Shown: one piece after another, positions 15,909-64,000 of the stretch | Position numbering within the stretch: the stretch's first letter is position 1 | Layout: each line of letters starts with the position of its first letter | NCBI GenBank assembly: GCA_947259295.1 | Contig: CAMYMG010000013.1 | Coordinates: 62,001-126,000, forward strand | Source: an uncultured Rhizobiaceae bacterium | GTDB lineage: Bacteria > Pseudomonadota > Alphaproteobacteria > Rhizobiales > Rhizobiaceae | Direction: 5' to 3' | Length of the DNA: 64,000 nucleotides | The notes under the pieces: generated by a model | The model's database searches: none | What the model was told of the DNA's origin: nothing | The model's input: the letters and a program-made list of their open reading frames with translations, nothing else | Position numbers and translations under genes: made by a program

Positions 15909-17321
15909 CTACTCGGCTGCCTGTGTCGCTTCTTCCAGTCCAAGCCACCGGCGGCAGTCGGCCAGCGCGCGCGAGGTGACGGCGTGACGCTTGGCGACGG
16001 TCTTGTCCTTGCCGCGCAGCCGCTTGCCCTCCGGGCCCTGCTGCGCCTCGACGGGCGGGAACAGGCCGAAATTGACGTTCATCGGCTGGAAGGAACGCTT
16101 GCCGGGTTCATCATCCGAAACGATGTGCCCGCCCGTGATGTGATTGAGCAGCGCGCCGAAAGCCGTGGTAACCGGTGGCAAAGCAGGCGCCAGGCCGAGC
16201 CGCTCGGCGGCAGCGAACCGTCCGGCGAGCAGCCCGATGGCCGCACTCTCGACATAGCCCTCGCAGCCGGTGATCTGGCCCGCGAAGCGCAGTCCGGGGC
16301 GCGTCTTCAGCTGCAGCGAAGGGTCCAGCAGGGTCGGCGAATTGATGTAGGTGTTGCGGTGCAGCCCGCCGAGGCGTGCGAACTCGGCGTTCTCGAGACC
16401 GGGGATCATGCGGAAGATGCGCACCTGCTCGGCGTGCTTCAGCTTGGTCTGGAAACCGACCATGTTGTAGAGCGTGCCTAGCGCGTTGTCCTGGCGCAGC
16501 TGCACCACGGCATAGGCCTTGACCGACGGGTTATGCGCATTGGTCAGCCCCATCGGCTTCATCGGACCATGGCGCGCCGTTTCCGGTCCACGCTCGGCCA
16601 TGATCTCGATCGGCAGGCAGCCGTCGAAATAGGGTGTGCCCTCCCACTGCTTGAATTCCGTCTTCTGGCCCGAAATCAAGGCGGCGATGAAGGCCTCGTA
16701 CTGGGCCTTGTCCATCGGGCAGTTGATGTAGTCCTTCCCCGTGCCGCCGGGGCCGACCTTGTCGTAGCGCGACTGGAACCAGCAGACGTCCATGTCGATG
16801 GAATCGAAGTGGATGATCGGCGCGATGGCATCGAAGAATGCCAGCGCATCGGCGCCCGTCGTCGCGGCAATGGCTTCGGCGAGCGAAGGTGCGGTCAGCG
16901 GCCCGGTGGCGACGATCGCCTCATCCCACTCGGCGGGCGGCAGACCGGTCACCTCCTCGCGGACGATGTCGATCAACGGATGGGCTTCGAGCCGCTCGGT
17001 GACAGCGGCGGAGAAGCCGTCGCGGTCGACCGCCAGCGCACCGCCGGCGGGCACCTGGTTGGCGTCGCCGGAGGCCATGACCAACGATCCTGCAAGCCGC
17101 ATTTCCGCATGCAGCAGTCCGACGGCATTGTTCTGCGCGTCGTCGGAGCGGAAGGAATTCGAGCAGACCAGTTCGGCCAGGCCTTCGGTCTTGTGCGCAT
17201 CGGTGCCGCGCACGGGGCGCATTTCGTGCAGGATAACCGGCACGCCGGCCTGCGCCGCCTGCCATGCGGCTTCGGATCCGGCGAGACCGCCGCCGATGAT
17301 GTGGATGGGTTTCAGCGTCAT
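15909..17321 (-). CDS. trmFO: methylenetetrahydrofolate-tRNA-(uracil-5-)-methyltransferase TrmFO
   Basis: A 470-residue FAD- and folate-dependent enzyme that makes 5-methyluridine at position 54 in the T loop of tRNAs. The N-terminal Rossmann motif [19 protein letters not shown] binds FAD. Family segments [19 protein letters not shown] and the C-terminal [13 protein letters not shown] are all present. Length is normal. It is transcribed toward the phytoene synthase-like gene with no bases between the two stop codons. Confidence 0.96.
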
Positions 17322-17432
17322 GGTTGCCGCAATAATCCCTCAAAGGGGCGATTGCAACGATGGTCGTCGGATGCTGTGGGCTTGGCGAGCGGCAGGGTTG
17401 CCGCCATGCGTTCAGGCGCAATAGGATTGCGG

Positions 17433-18050
17433 ATGAAATCCAGTCTACAGGTCCTTTCCGCTGCGCTTCTGCTCGCCGTCGCCGGCTGCACGTCGGCTTC
17501 TGAGACGAGCAAGCCTGAACTTCTCGGCTATGCGGCGCCGGAGAGGTTGTCGATCTGCCATGGCTATGGATGCACCTACCGCAGCAATCTCGATCTCGGT
17601 GCCAAGGATGGAGCGCGATTCAGGGCAATAATGGCGCGCGGCAAAGCCAGTCCCGCCGCCGAGCGGGCCGCCATCTCCAAGGCTGTACGGTATTTTGAGG
17701 ATAGGACCTTTCAGGTGACGGGCGTACGCGACCTGCCGAGGGCCAAGCTCGGAGCGTCGCGCATCAGAGGGCAGATGGACTGCGTCGACGAGGCAACCAA
17801 CACGCGCGCCCTCCTGATCTACCTGTCGAAGCGCGGCATGCTGAGGCACCACAAGGTCGAGAGGAACGCGTCGCGCGGTCATTTTATCGACGGGCGCTAC
17901 CCGCACTTTACCGCGGTGATCCGCGATCCCAAGGGCGTTACCTGGGCAGTCGACTCCTGGTACGCCCCGATGGGCGGTGCGCCCGACATCATCCCGATGA
18001 GCGAATGGAAGCCGCGCGGCTACCTCTCGAGCGGTGCGCTCGATTCCTGA
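17433..18050 (+). CDS. lipoprotein with transglutaminase-like Cys-His-Asp layout
   Basis: A 205-residue predicted lipoprotein. The signal peptide ends in the lipobox VAGC, putting Cys near residue 19 of the chosen ATG; another in-frame ATG at 17406 would add nine residues. The mature domain has GQMDCVDEATNTRALL (candidate catalytic Cys), then RYPHFTAVI (His) and WAVDSWYAP (Asp and Trp), the order and spacing expected of bacterial transglutaminase-like cysteine peptidases. I infer that fold; activity is untested and I know no named family member. It converges on the DUF1127/hairpin RNA unit. Confidence 0.75.
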   Translation: MKSSLQVLSAALLLAVAGCTSASETSKPELLGYAAPERLSICHGYGCTYRSNLDLGAKDGARFRAIMARGKASPAAERAAISKAVRYFEDRTFQVTGVRDLPRAKLGASRIRGQMDCVDEATNTRALLIYLSKRGMLRHHKVERNASRGHFIDGRYPHFTAVIRDPKGVTWAVDSWYAPMGGAPDIIPMSEWKPRGYLSSGALDS

Positions 18051-18077
18051 ACTGTTCCATTGCGTGGGAGGAGGGGG

Positions 18078-18119
18078 CTAAAAAACAACACCCGCCGCGG
18101 GAGGAGGTGCGGCGGGTGT
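18078..18119 (-). terminator. intrinsic terminator formed by the last CCUCCUCCC hairpin
   Basis: The perfect 11-bp G/C-rich stem (18088-18098 with 18109-18119) is followed on the minus strand by TGTTTTTTAG (18087-18078). This is a canonical intrinsic terminator whose loop is at the same time the regulatory CCUCCUCCC motif. Confidence 0.85.
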
Positions 18120-18196
18120 CGTTTTTGGGGCCAGCAATCGGGAGGAGGTGACTGCCGACCGTATCCGTCAGTTCCCGGGAGGAGGTGGGTTCTGAC
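18088..18196 (-). ncRNA. CcsR/cuckoo-type small RNA, unit 2
   Basis: Second copy of the three-hairpin unit, 159 nt downstream of unit 1 on the minus strand. Hairpins: arms 18187-18196/18167-18176 (10 positions with a two-base internal mismatch), 18150-18160/18129-18139 (11 pairs including three G-U wobbles) and 18109-18119/18088-18098 (11 perfect G/C-rich pairs). Linkers GGATAC and CCAAAAACG match those of unit 1 in place and length. Loops again read ACCUCCUCCC. The sequences of the arms have diverged from unit 1 while pairing is mostly kept, which indicates selection on structure. Confidence 0.85.
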
Positions 18197-18246
18197 GAAA
18201 TTCCTTTTGCCAATTGAAAAGGGGCAAATCCTTTGGGTGGGTAACA

Positions 18247-18356
18247 GCGCCCGCCGCGGGAGGAGGTGCAGCGGGCGCCGTTTTGGTGGTCAACTTCCGG
18301 GAGGAGGTGAAAGCTGACCGTATCCGACCGGGTCTGGGAGGAGGTAGACCGGTCGG
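18247..18356 (-). ncRNA. CcsR/cuckoo-type small RNA, unit 1 (three CCUCCUCCC-loop hairpins)
   Basis: Read on the minus strand, three stem-loops follow each other: arms 18346-18356/18324-18335 (11 pairs, one bulged C), 18309-18319/18288-18298 (11 pairs with G-U wobbles) and 18268-18278/18247-18257 (11 pairs, one G-U). Each loop is ACCUCCUCCC, which resembles the anti-Shine-Dalgarno end of 16S rRNA. The linkers are GGATAC and ACCAAAACG. The wobbles would be A-C mismatches in plus-strand RNA, so the minus strand is the functional one. CcsR/cuckoo RNAs of alphaproteobacteria have the same loops and lie behind DUF1127 genes. Hairpin 3 is followed by TGTTACCC, not a T-tract. Confidence 0.85.
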
Positions 18357-18368
18357 AATTCGCGAATG

Positions 18369-18509
18369 CTAGAGAGACTTGCGTGCAACCTGGCGGATTT
18401 CGCTGCGGTCGATGCCGAGGTCATCCAGGCTACGGTTGGACAGGCGACCCAGCGCGTCGACAGTGTCGCGATAAGCGCGCCAGTTGCGATAGTTGCGGAT
18501 CAGGTTCAT
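18369..18509 (-). CDS. DUF1127 small basic protein (second of two)
   Basis: A 46-residue, arginine-rich protein starting MNLIRNYRNWRAYRDTVDAL, with the DUF1127 core RLSNRSLDDLGIDRSEI and a basic end VARKSL. It is identical at 33 of 46 positions to the DUF1127 protein encoded 48 bp upstream. DUF1127 proteins bind RNA; the Rhodobacter example CcaF1 is encoded just ahead of the CcsR RNAs and affects their maturation and turnover. Here the hairpin array begins 12 bp after the stop codon on the same strand, so RNA binding and joint transcription are likely. Only a weak AAAGAG precedes the start. Confidence 0.93.
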   Translation of the reverse strand: MNLIRNYRNWRAYRDTVDALGRLSNRSLDDLGIDRSEIRQVARKSL

Positions 18510-18557
18510 CGTCGTGCTCTTTCAAAAACTGGTTCGGACCGTTGAAGGTCCGAAGTG

Positions 18558-18698
18558 TCAGACCGACTTGCGGGCGACGAAGGGGATGTCGCCGCGGCTG
18601 ATGCCGAGATCGGTCAGTTCGCGGTTGGTAAGGCGATTCAGCTCGTTGACCGTGTCACGGTAGCTGCGCCAATTGCGGTAGTTGCGGATAAGGTTCAT
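18558..18698 (-). CDS. DUF1127 small basic protein (first of two)
   Basis: A 46-residue protein, MNLIRNYRNWRSYRDTVNEL at the N-terminus followed by RLTNRELTDLGISRGDI and VARKSV, the full DUF1127 domain with almost nothing else. It is first in the minus-strand unit DUF1127-DUF1127-hairpin array. The ATG at 18698 is preceded by GAGAAG. The frame is open further upstream to 18803, but that extension is not part of the family. Expression under heat or oxidative stress via RpoH-type sigma factors is known for related loci; I could not identify a clear promoter here. Confidence 0.94.
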   Translation of the reverse strand: MNLIRNYRNWRSYRDTVNELNRLTNRELTDLGISRGDIPFVARKSV

Positions 18699-18784
18699 GG
18701 TACTTCTCGTTCGTCTTTCTTTCGGATCATTCCGTCTTTGTGTACGAAGCGAAGATAGGTGAACCGTACCGGCATTTAAATCGA

Positions 18785-18805
18785 CAATGCTGCATGGCAG
18801 CATTG
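18785..18805. promoter_or_regulatory. perfect 9-bp palindrome in the divergent DUF1127/DUF2157 promoter region
   Basis: CAATGCTGC (18785-18793) and GCAGCATTG (18797-18805) are perfectly complementary with ATG between them. The site lies 87 bp upstream of the first DUF1127 start and 120 bp upstream of the DUF2157 start on the other strand. A dimeric regulator could bind it, but no regulator is identified and it has no T-tract, so a terminator is unlikely. Confidence 0.45.
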
Positions 18806-40733: not shown

Positions 40734-40983
40734 AGGTGTCTCCCGTAGTTCCCCTCGGTGGAGGAACGAGTTGAACGGTTCACAGCCTGTCGGGGGATTT
40801 CGGCGTCATGCCAAGCTGCCCGAAGCTGCCTAGATATGATCCCGGATGCGACGACGTCCGGCGACGCAGAGGCCGCCATCTTGTCGATCAAAGAACACCA
40901 GCATTATATATGACCGGACAGGGCGAATGAAAGATACCGGGGCGGCACGGATTGTTCGCCAAACGGCGACAGGTTGGAAAATC

Positions 40984-63798: not shown

Positions 63799-63975
63799 CC
63801 CCTCTGTCGGAAGCCTGAGAGACTCGCGCAACCGGAACCCTGTCGGCGGCGCTTACACCTTCGGCGCGGGAACCAGTCCCGACTTTCCAGAGTGTCTTCC
63901 TGTCTACGGTTCTTTTGCCTGAGAGATTTCGGGCGATTTCCCCTTCGGCGGCAGCACCGTGCTGCTCTCTCCCGC
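63799..63975 (-). promoter_or_regulatory. tandem glycine riboswitch upstream of gcvT-gcvH-gcvP
   Basis: On the minus strand two aptamers follow each other. Aptamer 1 (about 63975-63890) has GCGGGAGAG, CGCCGAAGGGG and AATCTCTCAGGCAAAAG, then CCGTAGACAGG. Aptamer 2 (about 63890-63799) starts at CACTCTGGAAAG and has GCGCCGAAGG, GAGTCTCTCAGG and GACAGAGGGG. These are the conserved cores of the glycine riboswitch, which turns on gcv expression when glycine is high. It ends 49 bp before the gcvT ATG. Confidence 0.95.
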
Positions 63976-64000
63976 AAACAGTTAGGGCTCCCGAGAGAGC

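Follow-up and report, generated by a model that had tools for sequence, protein, structure and literature searches.

Tandem ar14 small RNAs behind two DUF1127 genes: a predicted VtlR/LsrB-controlled operon in an uncultured Rhizobiaceae bacterium

In a stretch of 64,000 nt from the genome of an uncultured Rhizobiaceae bacterium (contig CAMYMG010000013.1, positions 62,001 to 126,000; this is the window that was searched, and coordinates below are window positions), the minus strand between 18698 and 18080 carries two genes for DUF1127 proteins followed by two tandem units of three hairpins each. The question raised by this locus is what such an arrangement produces, and which regulator drives it. 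We consider it quite probable that it is a DUF1127-DUF1127-ar14-ar14 operon under the control of VtlR/LsrB, and that RNAs derived from its 3' part block translation in trans. This reading draws on the family membership of the units, on their structure and covariation, on gene order, on the absence of a U-tract from inner units, on boxes in the promoter region, and on a trxB-LysR-ar15 cassette that this genome also carries.

Both hairpin units belong to ar14 (RF02344, the alpha-r14/NfeR1 small RNA family; gathering cut-off 58.8 bits) and cover positions 1-123 of the 123 in the covariance model; since they are full-length members, three hairpins per unit is simply the standard ar14 fold. An initial annotation had described the array as a larger and differently built version of the CcsR RNAs, a description that gives way to two standard ar14 units already named by Rfam. 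Its observation of six stem-loops with identical anti-Shine-Dalgarno-like loops holds: all six loops consist of the same 10-nt ACCUCCUCCC, and CCUCCUCCC is present in the loop of each of the three hairpins in both units. The window contains 8 copies of the motif CCTCCTCCC, 7 of them on the minus strand at 18066-18344, while shuffled sequences have a mean of 0.60 and a maximum of 3. Six of these seven local copies lie inside ACCUCCUCCC loops; an extra stemless copy like the seventh is not listed in any of the other 12 two-DUF1127 loci examined. A pattern scan for terminators with a loop limit of 8 did not include hairpin 3 of unit 2 in its minus-strand list.

The strand of the array had been assigned from covariation, on the grounds that several stem pairs are G-U in the minus-strand RNA. 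Folding energy alone cannot pick the strand, because the values are nearly equal (−137.6 kcal/mol for the minus strand, −138.5 kcal/mol for the plus strand), but the z-score does (−10.8 versus −5.0). Eight clear G-U pairs of the minus strand are spread over four hairpins. Hairpin 1 of unit 2 has no such pair; in hairpin 1 of unit 1 a bulge shifts the register, and two further G-U pairs are listed there. Pairs of this kind in a single sequence are not covariation, and it is the stems of relatives that lend support to the minus strand. We searched 61 genomes, comprising the genome of the window and 60 relatives, and obtained 141 ar14 hits, weak ones included, which make up 112 loci. From the 100 units with at least two exact motifs, 57 were hand-picked and aligned. 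In this alignment RNAalifold recovered hairpins 2 and 3, with changes on both sides in 20 of the 22 predicted pairs, and did not recover hairpin 1, the stem length of which varies there; the loop letters are fixed across the aligned units and the stems are variable. Among hairpins carrying the exact motif, 6.8, 7.1 and 7.9 of 8 arm positions are paired in hairpins 1, 2 and 3, respectively (n = 100, 105, 69), versus 5.2, 5.3 and 6.5 when the arms are swapped between genera. With the stem register set by Watson-Crick pairs alone, 273 hairpins (99, 105 and 69) contain 103 G-U and 46 A-C cells, versus 173 and 169 with arms swapped between genera, and the minus strand is therefore supported.

Matches to PF06568 in both open reading frames agree with the two adjacent minus-strand DUF1127 genes that the initial annotation had placed before the array. 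A search by sequence for a related solved structure of a DUF1127 protein returned four matches, all with E of 0.1 or worse. Of 12 relatives that have two DUF1127 genes, 8 also have a hairpin like the one found between the genes here, with a longest T-run of 3-5, and it may be a partial terminator. The ar14 family is found at E ≤ 0.001 in 45 of the 61 genomes (above the gathering cut-off in 37), and DUF1127 in at least 56. If a DUF1127-ar14 locus is defined as one whose first unit is preceded, on the same strand and within 520 nt, by the start of a DUF1127 gene, 41 of the 112 ar14 loci qualify. The frequent proximity of DUF1127 and ar14 would also suit an array that acts as a sponge or feedback element binding the DUF1127 proteins, with regulation of other mRNAs being secondary, as would the reports that CcaF1 binds RNA (PMC12501420) and takes part in the maturation of CcsR (PMC10253847). 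We regard this explanation as unlikely: the remaining 71 of the 112 loci have no DUF1127 gene directly upstream (8 of them have one downstream), CCTCCTCC is absent within 500 nt downstream of 20 hand-picked DUF1127 loci, the conserved part of the units is a loop able to pair with ribosome-binding sites whereas the stems vary, and DUF1127 proteins other than CcaF1 have protein partners, such as PhoR and SsrA (PMC12501420).

The distribution of U-tracts bears on the question of whether the array is a single transcript. Such a tract is not part of the Rfam cut-off for ar14. Of 19 inner tandem units (non-overlapping model hits from 13 loci), none has a T-run of at least 5 behind hairpin 3, versus 52 of 91 solo units (Fisher p of 1e-6 by unit and 1e-4 by locus); there is a T-run of at least 4 in 2 of 19 inner versus 8 of 12 terminal units (p = 0.002), terminal units near a contig end being excluded. 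In the window the longest T-run after unit 1 is 2, in agreement with co-transcription, and unit 2 is followed by U6. Because inner units have no U-tract of five, the array is probably read as one RNA that would be cut afterwards. The terminator-like hairpin 3 of the last unit, together with the few bases that separate the DUF1127 stop codon from the start of the array, would also be expected if the units only stabilised and terminated the DUF1127 mRNA at its 3' end and had no targets in trans. This appears very unlikely to us, as the conservation of the loops far exceeds what a terminator needs, many ar14 copies have no upstream DUF1127 gene, and NfeR1, the founding member of the family, silences mRNAs in trans by means of its loops (PMC10746234).

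As to the regulator, the promoter region of the window contains adjoining near-matches to the reported VtlR motif (CAATGCAGCCATGCA; PMC12595884) and to the LsrB motif of the NfeR1 promoter (TGCA-N6-GCAT; PMC10746234). The VtlR-like box, which starts 107 nt before the first ATG, is the sole match to CAATGCWGCCATGCA in the window even at 2 mismatches, with 0.37 expected by chance. When boxes with up to 3 mismatches were counted within 250 nt on either strand, with mononucleotide shuffles as the control, a VtlR-like box was present in 26 of 41 DUF1127-ar14 loci (14 of 1640 shuffles) and in 19 of 70 ar14-only loci (15 of 2800 shuffles), one of the 71 being left out for its short upstream stretch; it was also present in 5 of 20 hand-picked DUF1127 loci without a downstream ar14, one of which, L255, has ar14 upstream. 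TGCA-N6-GCA[A/T] is found upstream of 29 of 41 DUF1127-ar14 and 13 of 70 ar14-only loci, and in 0.4% of shuffles. The genome also contains in a row trxB, a gene for a LysR protein of 306 aa, and ar15 (AbcR, 46.2 bits, cut-off 40), in the trxB-LysR-AbcR order described for vtlR (PMC7486931). Since near-matches to both boxes adjoin in this promoter, as in most DUF1127-ar14 relatives, and since this row has the vtlR order, VtlR/LsrB is the predicted activator of the locus, rather than RpoH as for CcsR. LsrB is known to activate NfeR1 (PMC10746234), and VtlR to bind at the promoter of atu1667, a small-protein gene (PMC7486931).

Control by RpoH, with the LysR-type boxes being incidental, is an explanation to which we give little credence: the frequency of boxes in DUF1127-ar14 loci exceeds that in shuffles approximately 74-fold (VtlR) and 166-fold (LsrB), and a −35 element of the CTTG type was not seen in the candidate promoter, as judged by eye from the RpoH consensus. 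A response to heat and oxidative stress, envisaged in the initial annotation and exerted on CcsR through an RpoHI/RpoHII promoter, is not what this promoter suggests; it has VtlR/LsrB-like boxes instead. Two Agrobacterium loci with ar14 and no DUF1127 (L224 and L226) have a VtlR-like box with 2 and 1 mismatches, respectively, starting 57 nt upstream; their units are possible relatives of the VtlR-regulated RNA VrsA.

According to the VtlR/LsrB operon reading, VtlR/LsrB would bind the boxes, and one minus-strand transcript would start just downstream of them, encode the two 46-aa DUF1127 proteins, continue across unit 1 (which has no U-tract) and stop at hairpin 3 of unit 2, the likely terminator. 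Its 3' part would then be processed into one or two separate ar14 RNAs, probably by RNase E if CcsR is a guide: in Rhodobacter sphaeroides RNase E makes CcsR1-4 from a ccaF1-CcsR precursor, with the participation of CcaF1 (PMC10253847, PMC8307010). The DUF1127 proteins encoded here might likewise act on the RNAs. The three identical anti-Shine-Dalgarno loops of each ar14 would pair with the ribosome-binding sites of targets and block translation as in NfeR1, which silences ntrB via its loops, these being redundant (PMC10746234). Self-silencing of the DUF1127 genes was rejected as an obvious mechanism: by eye, both leaders are without GGAGG.

Several observations weigh against this reading. A VtlR-like box at up to 3 mismatches is missing in 15 of the 41 DUF1127-ar14 loci, and the shuffles with which the counts are compared are mononucleotide only. 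The LysR protein is assigned to VtlR/LsrB by synteny only, and it passes the cut-off of none of the 25 NCBIfam models listed out of 55. Not all terminal units are good terminators, as 4 of 12 reach a T-run of five. With respect to targets, GGAGG/GAGGAG is absent in the 500 nt around the putative ntrB start of this genome, where ntrB and ntrC were named by order as the two open reading frames after dusB, and ntrB is therefore not supported as a conserved target. The pattern GGAGGAGG-N4-10-ATG has 16 sites versus 6 for the reversed pattern, several of them not at plausible gene starts. Ten of these 16 sites were scanned for the frame downstream, and 8 of the 10 frames contain a Pfam domain; some seem to lie inside larger genes (the C-terminus of a GMP synthase; a TOBE domain, probably of an ABC ATPase), and no start of a transporter gene is among the ten. 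We claim no targets from these sites. Finally, some ar14 copies may be silent, since only one of the six NfeR1 loci of Sinorhizobium meliloti was reliably detected by northern blot (PMC7143759).

The lack of a clear target set in the pattern search and at the ntrB start is what one would expect if the array broadly imitated the 16S rRNA tail, with loops that bind any strong Shine-Dalgarno sequence; the dose of six loops would then count, and a specific regulon would not exist. The six loops are indeed identical and generic, and arrays of relatives reach 9 exact motifs (among the best 80 of 581 trmFO loci, described below). The motif in the loops extends beyond the core anti-Shine-Dalgarno sequence, which counts against such a mimic. 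In addition, the predicted targets of NfeR1 are mostly transport mRNAs (PMC10746234, PMC7143759). On balance we are doubtful of the mimic, and we retain as the preferred reading a VtlR/LsrB-controlled operon whose 3' RNAs would have targets in trans.

Table 1. Features of the DUF1127-ar14 locus and of related loci.
Feature	Position	Strand	Basis
LsrB-type box TGCA-N6-GCAA, TGCACAATTTGCAA	18803..18816	−	last base differs from TGCA-N6-GCAT
VtlR-type box CAATGCTGCCATGCA, 1 mismatch to CAATGCAGCCATGCA	18791..18805	−	motif match
Candidate −10 element CTATCT, putative	18753..18758	−	sequence and upstream regions of relatives, by eye
DUF1127 gene 1, 46 aa	18558..18698	−	PF06568, E 6.5e-17
Hairpin and short U-tract between DUF1127 genes, possible partial terminator or processing site	18533..18554	−	pattern scan
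DUF1127 gene 2, 46 aa	18369..18509	−	PF06568, E 1.3e-13
ar14 unit 1	18242..18362	−	Rfam RF02344, 95.8 bits
Unit 1 hairpin 1, loop ACCUCCUCCC	18323..18357	−	folding
Unit 1 hairpin 2, loop ACCUCCUCCC	18288..18319	−	folding
Unit 1 hairpin 3, loop ACCUCCUCCC, without U-tract behind	18243..18282	−	sequence, T-run count
ar14 unit 2	18083..18204	−	Rfam RF02344, 92.8 bits
Unit 2 hairpin 1, loop ACCUCCUCCC	18164..18199	−	folding
Unit 2 hairpin 2, loop ACCUCCUCCC	18129..18160	−	folding
Unit 2 hairpin 3 and U6, likely intrinsic terminator of the array	18080..18126	−	folding, T-run count
Orphan seventh CCTCCTCCC, 3' of terminator, stemless	18066..18074	−	motif count, folding
ar14 loci with phasin-like gene	L003, 1157-1269 of contig C64 of the same genome; L015, L026, L030, L047, L068, L075, L082, L099, L100, L109		

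The array had also been taken for a peculiar construction, an opinion that does not survive comparison with relatives, in which two DUF1127 genes with at least two units recur. Among the 61 genomes, the window shares the order of two genes and then two units with the genomes G001 and G016, and G029 has two genes followed by one unit. A protein search with trmFO, for which the named loci are the best 80 of 581 confirmed (L120-L199), places the genome close to Mesorhizobium, Pseudaminobacter and Aminobacter, since the ten best named matches are from these genera, with 86-88% identity. In nine of these ten loci (L120-L123, L125-L129) the region upstream of trmFO holds two DUF1127 genes and, behind them, 5-9 exact motifs; the tenth (L124) ends before the position of the array. 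At least two exact motifs are present in 39 of the best 80. Phyllobacterium loci and two loci titled Brucella have one DUF1127 gene and 3-4 motifs at trmFO, and in Sinorhizobium glycinis and Ensifer adhaerens the units precede the DUF1127 genes. Across 13 two-gene loci, gene 1 proteins are 86% alike mutually versus 74% to gene 2 of their own genome; unit 1 of the window is nearest to eight other first units, and unit 2 to the second units of two Mesorhizobium loci, with mixed next neighbours. Judging from these sequences, the duplication seems to be old and kept.

Among the same best 80 loci, DUF1127 is found upstream of trmFO in many Hyphomicrobiales (in the window the two span 15909-18698), including Methylobacterium, Microvirga and Bradyrhizobium, where DUF1127 is present and the CCTCCTCCC array is absent. 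Terminators resembling GCCCGCC...GGCGGGC stand behind trmFO-adjacent DUF1127 genes in genera without the motif, and the derivation of ar14 hairpin 3 from a DUF1127 terminator was considered; as terminators of this type are common, the idea is suggestive only and we do not claim it.

The genome of the window (4.14 Mb in 112 contigs, 86% complete) contains five ar14 copies and five DUF1127 matches; the ar14 copies outside the window lie behind a single DUF1127 gene (contig C28), behind a phasin gene (C64; PF09361), and 79 nt 3' of a dctM gene (C10). Phasin-like genes are a second recurring host mRNA, with ar14 units 7-30 nt 3' of the gene in 11 loci of 11 genomes; these calls were judged by eye from similarity, and a Pfam phasin match was run for L003 alone. 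In a genome of another family (locus L112, contig C130 of G043), two DUF1127 genes are followed by a unit, a DUF1127 gene, a unit, a DUF1127 gene and a unit, these ar14-like units scoring under the Rfam cut-off. Elsewhere in the window, the minus strand has a glycine riboswitch (63897-63984) and a THF-II riboswitch (40740-40778), both above their gathering scores.

For comparison with known systems, we take the RNA RS0680a of R. sphaeroides to be CcsR1. The ccaF1-CcsR1-4 locus of that organism, of the CIN1 type with cuckoo RNA, resembles the one studied here in its DUF1127 gene, its tandem RNAs with anti-Shine-Dalgarno loops and its one intrinsic terminator, but RS0680a has two hairpins (PMC3927594) versus three per unit here, and that locus has a single 71-aa DUF1127 gene behind an RpoHI/RpoHII promoter (PMC10253847) versus two 46-aa genes behind VtlR/LsrB-like boxes. 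The likeness to alpha-r14/NfeR1 is closer in structure, with three hairpins, CCUCCUCCC in every loop, a length of about 122 nt, scores above the gathering cut-off for both units and an LsrB-type box upstream in both; however, NfeR1 has its own promoter (PMC10746234), whereas here tandem units directly follow two DUF1127 genes, the first of them without a U-tract. SmelA075 and SmelA099 of S. meliloti share the build of three and four hairpins, CCUCCUCCC loops and several copies per genome (PMC3927594), but no link to DUF1127 is stated, the name being absent from the main text of that paper. The VtlR-activated genes of Brucella and Agrobacterium (atu1667) have in common with this locus a small DUF1127 gene behind a VtlR box; the passages cited here do not describe an ar14 RNA behind the gene, and for atu1667 they do not decide between a protein-coding and an RNA gene (PMC7486931). 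Near the genes beside trmFO in Agrobacterium tumefaciens (L155) no ar14 above the cut-off was found, so that a 3' ar14 at atu1667 itself cannot be claimed.

This kind of locus is already known, because both of its elements have been published: RNAs with three or four hairpins and CCUCCUCCC loops were described in 2011 and suggested to form a single family whose members differ in module number (PMC3927594), and CcsR-like RNAs are frequent companions of short DUF1127 proteins, an association known as the CIN1 locus, for which the cuckoo RNA paper is cited (PMC10253847). The initial annotation was right in assigning a DUF1127 gene followed on the same strand by RNAs with anti-Shine-Dalgarno loops to the CcsR/cuckoo kind. 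What is new here is the presence of VtlR/LsrB near-match boxes in DUF1127-ar14 promoters and the lack of a U-tract of five in inner tandem units. A joint VtlR/LsrB box of DUF1127-ar14 operons was not found in the literature searched, the scope of which did not extend to subscription papers, the cuckoo paper included, and neither was a paper that deals with both DUF1127 and NfeR1.

Whether one VtlR/LsrB regulator drives, in Rhizobiaceae in the GTDB sense (the family as judged from the named relatives), a dual-output mRNA that yields DUF1127 proteins and one or more 3' ar14 RNAs, with the number of units serving as a gene-dose dial, is a generalization for which we see even chances. Taken alone, the locus is an unremarkable representative of a family that is widespread. 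If the generalization is true, the VtlR-DUF1127 branch of Brucella and Agrobacterium and the LsrB-NfeR1 branch of Sinorhizobium would be one regulon, and two separate literatures, on DUF1127 and on NfeR1, would be linked. At this locus one could test directly if small-protein genes activated by VtlR act partly via a 3'-derived RNA, a question that is close to the one of protein or RNA for atu1667 (PMC7486931).
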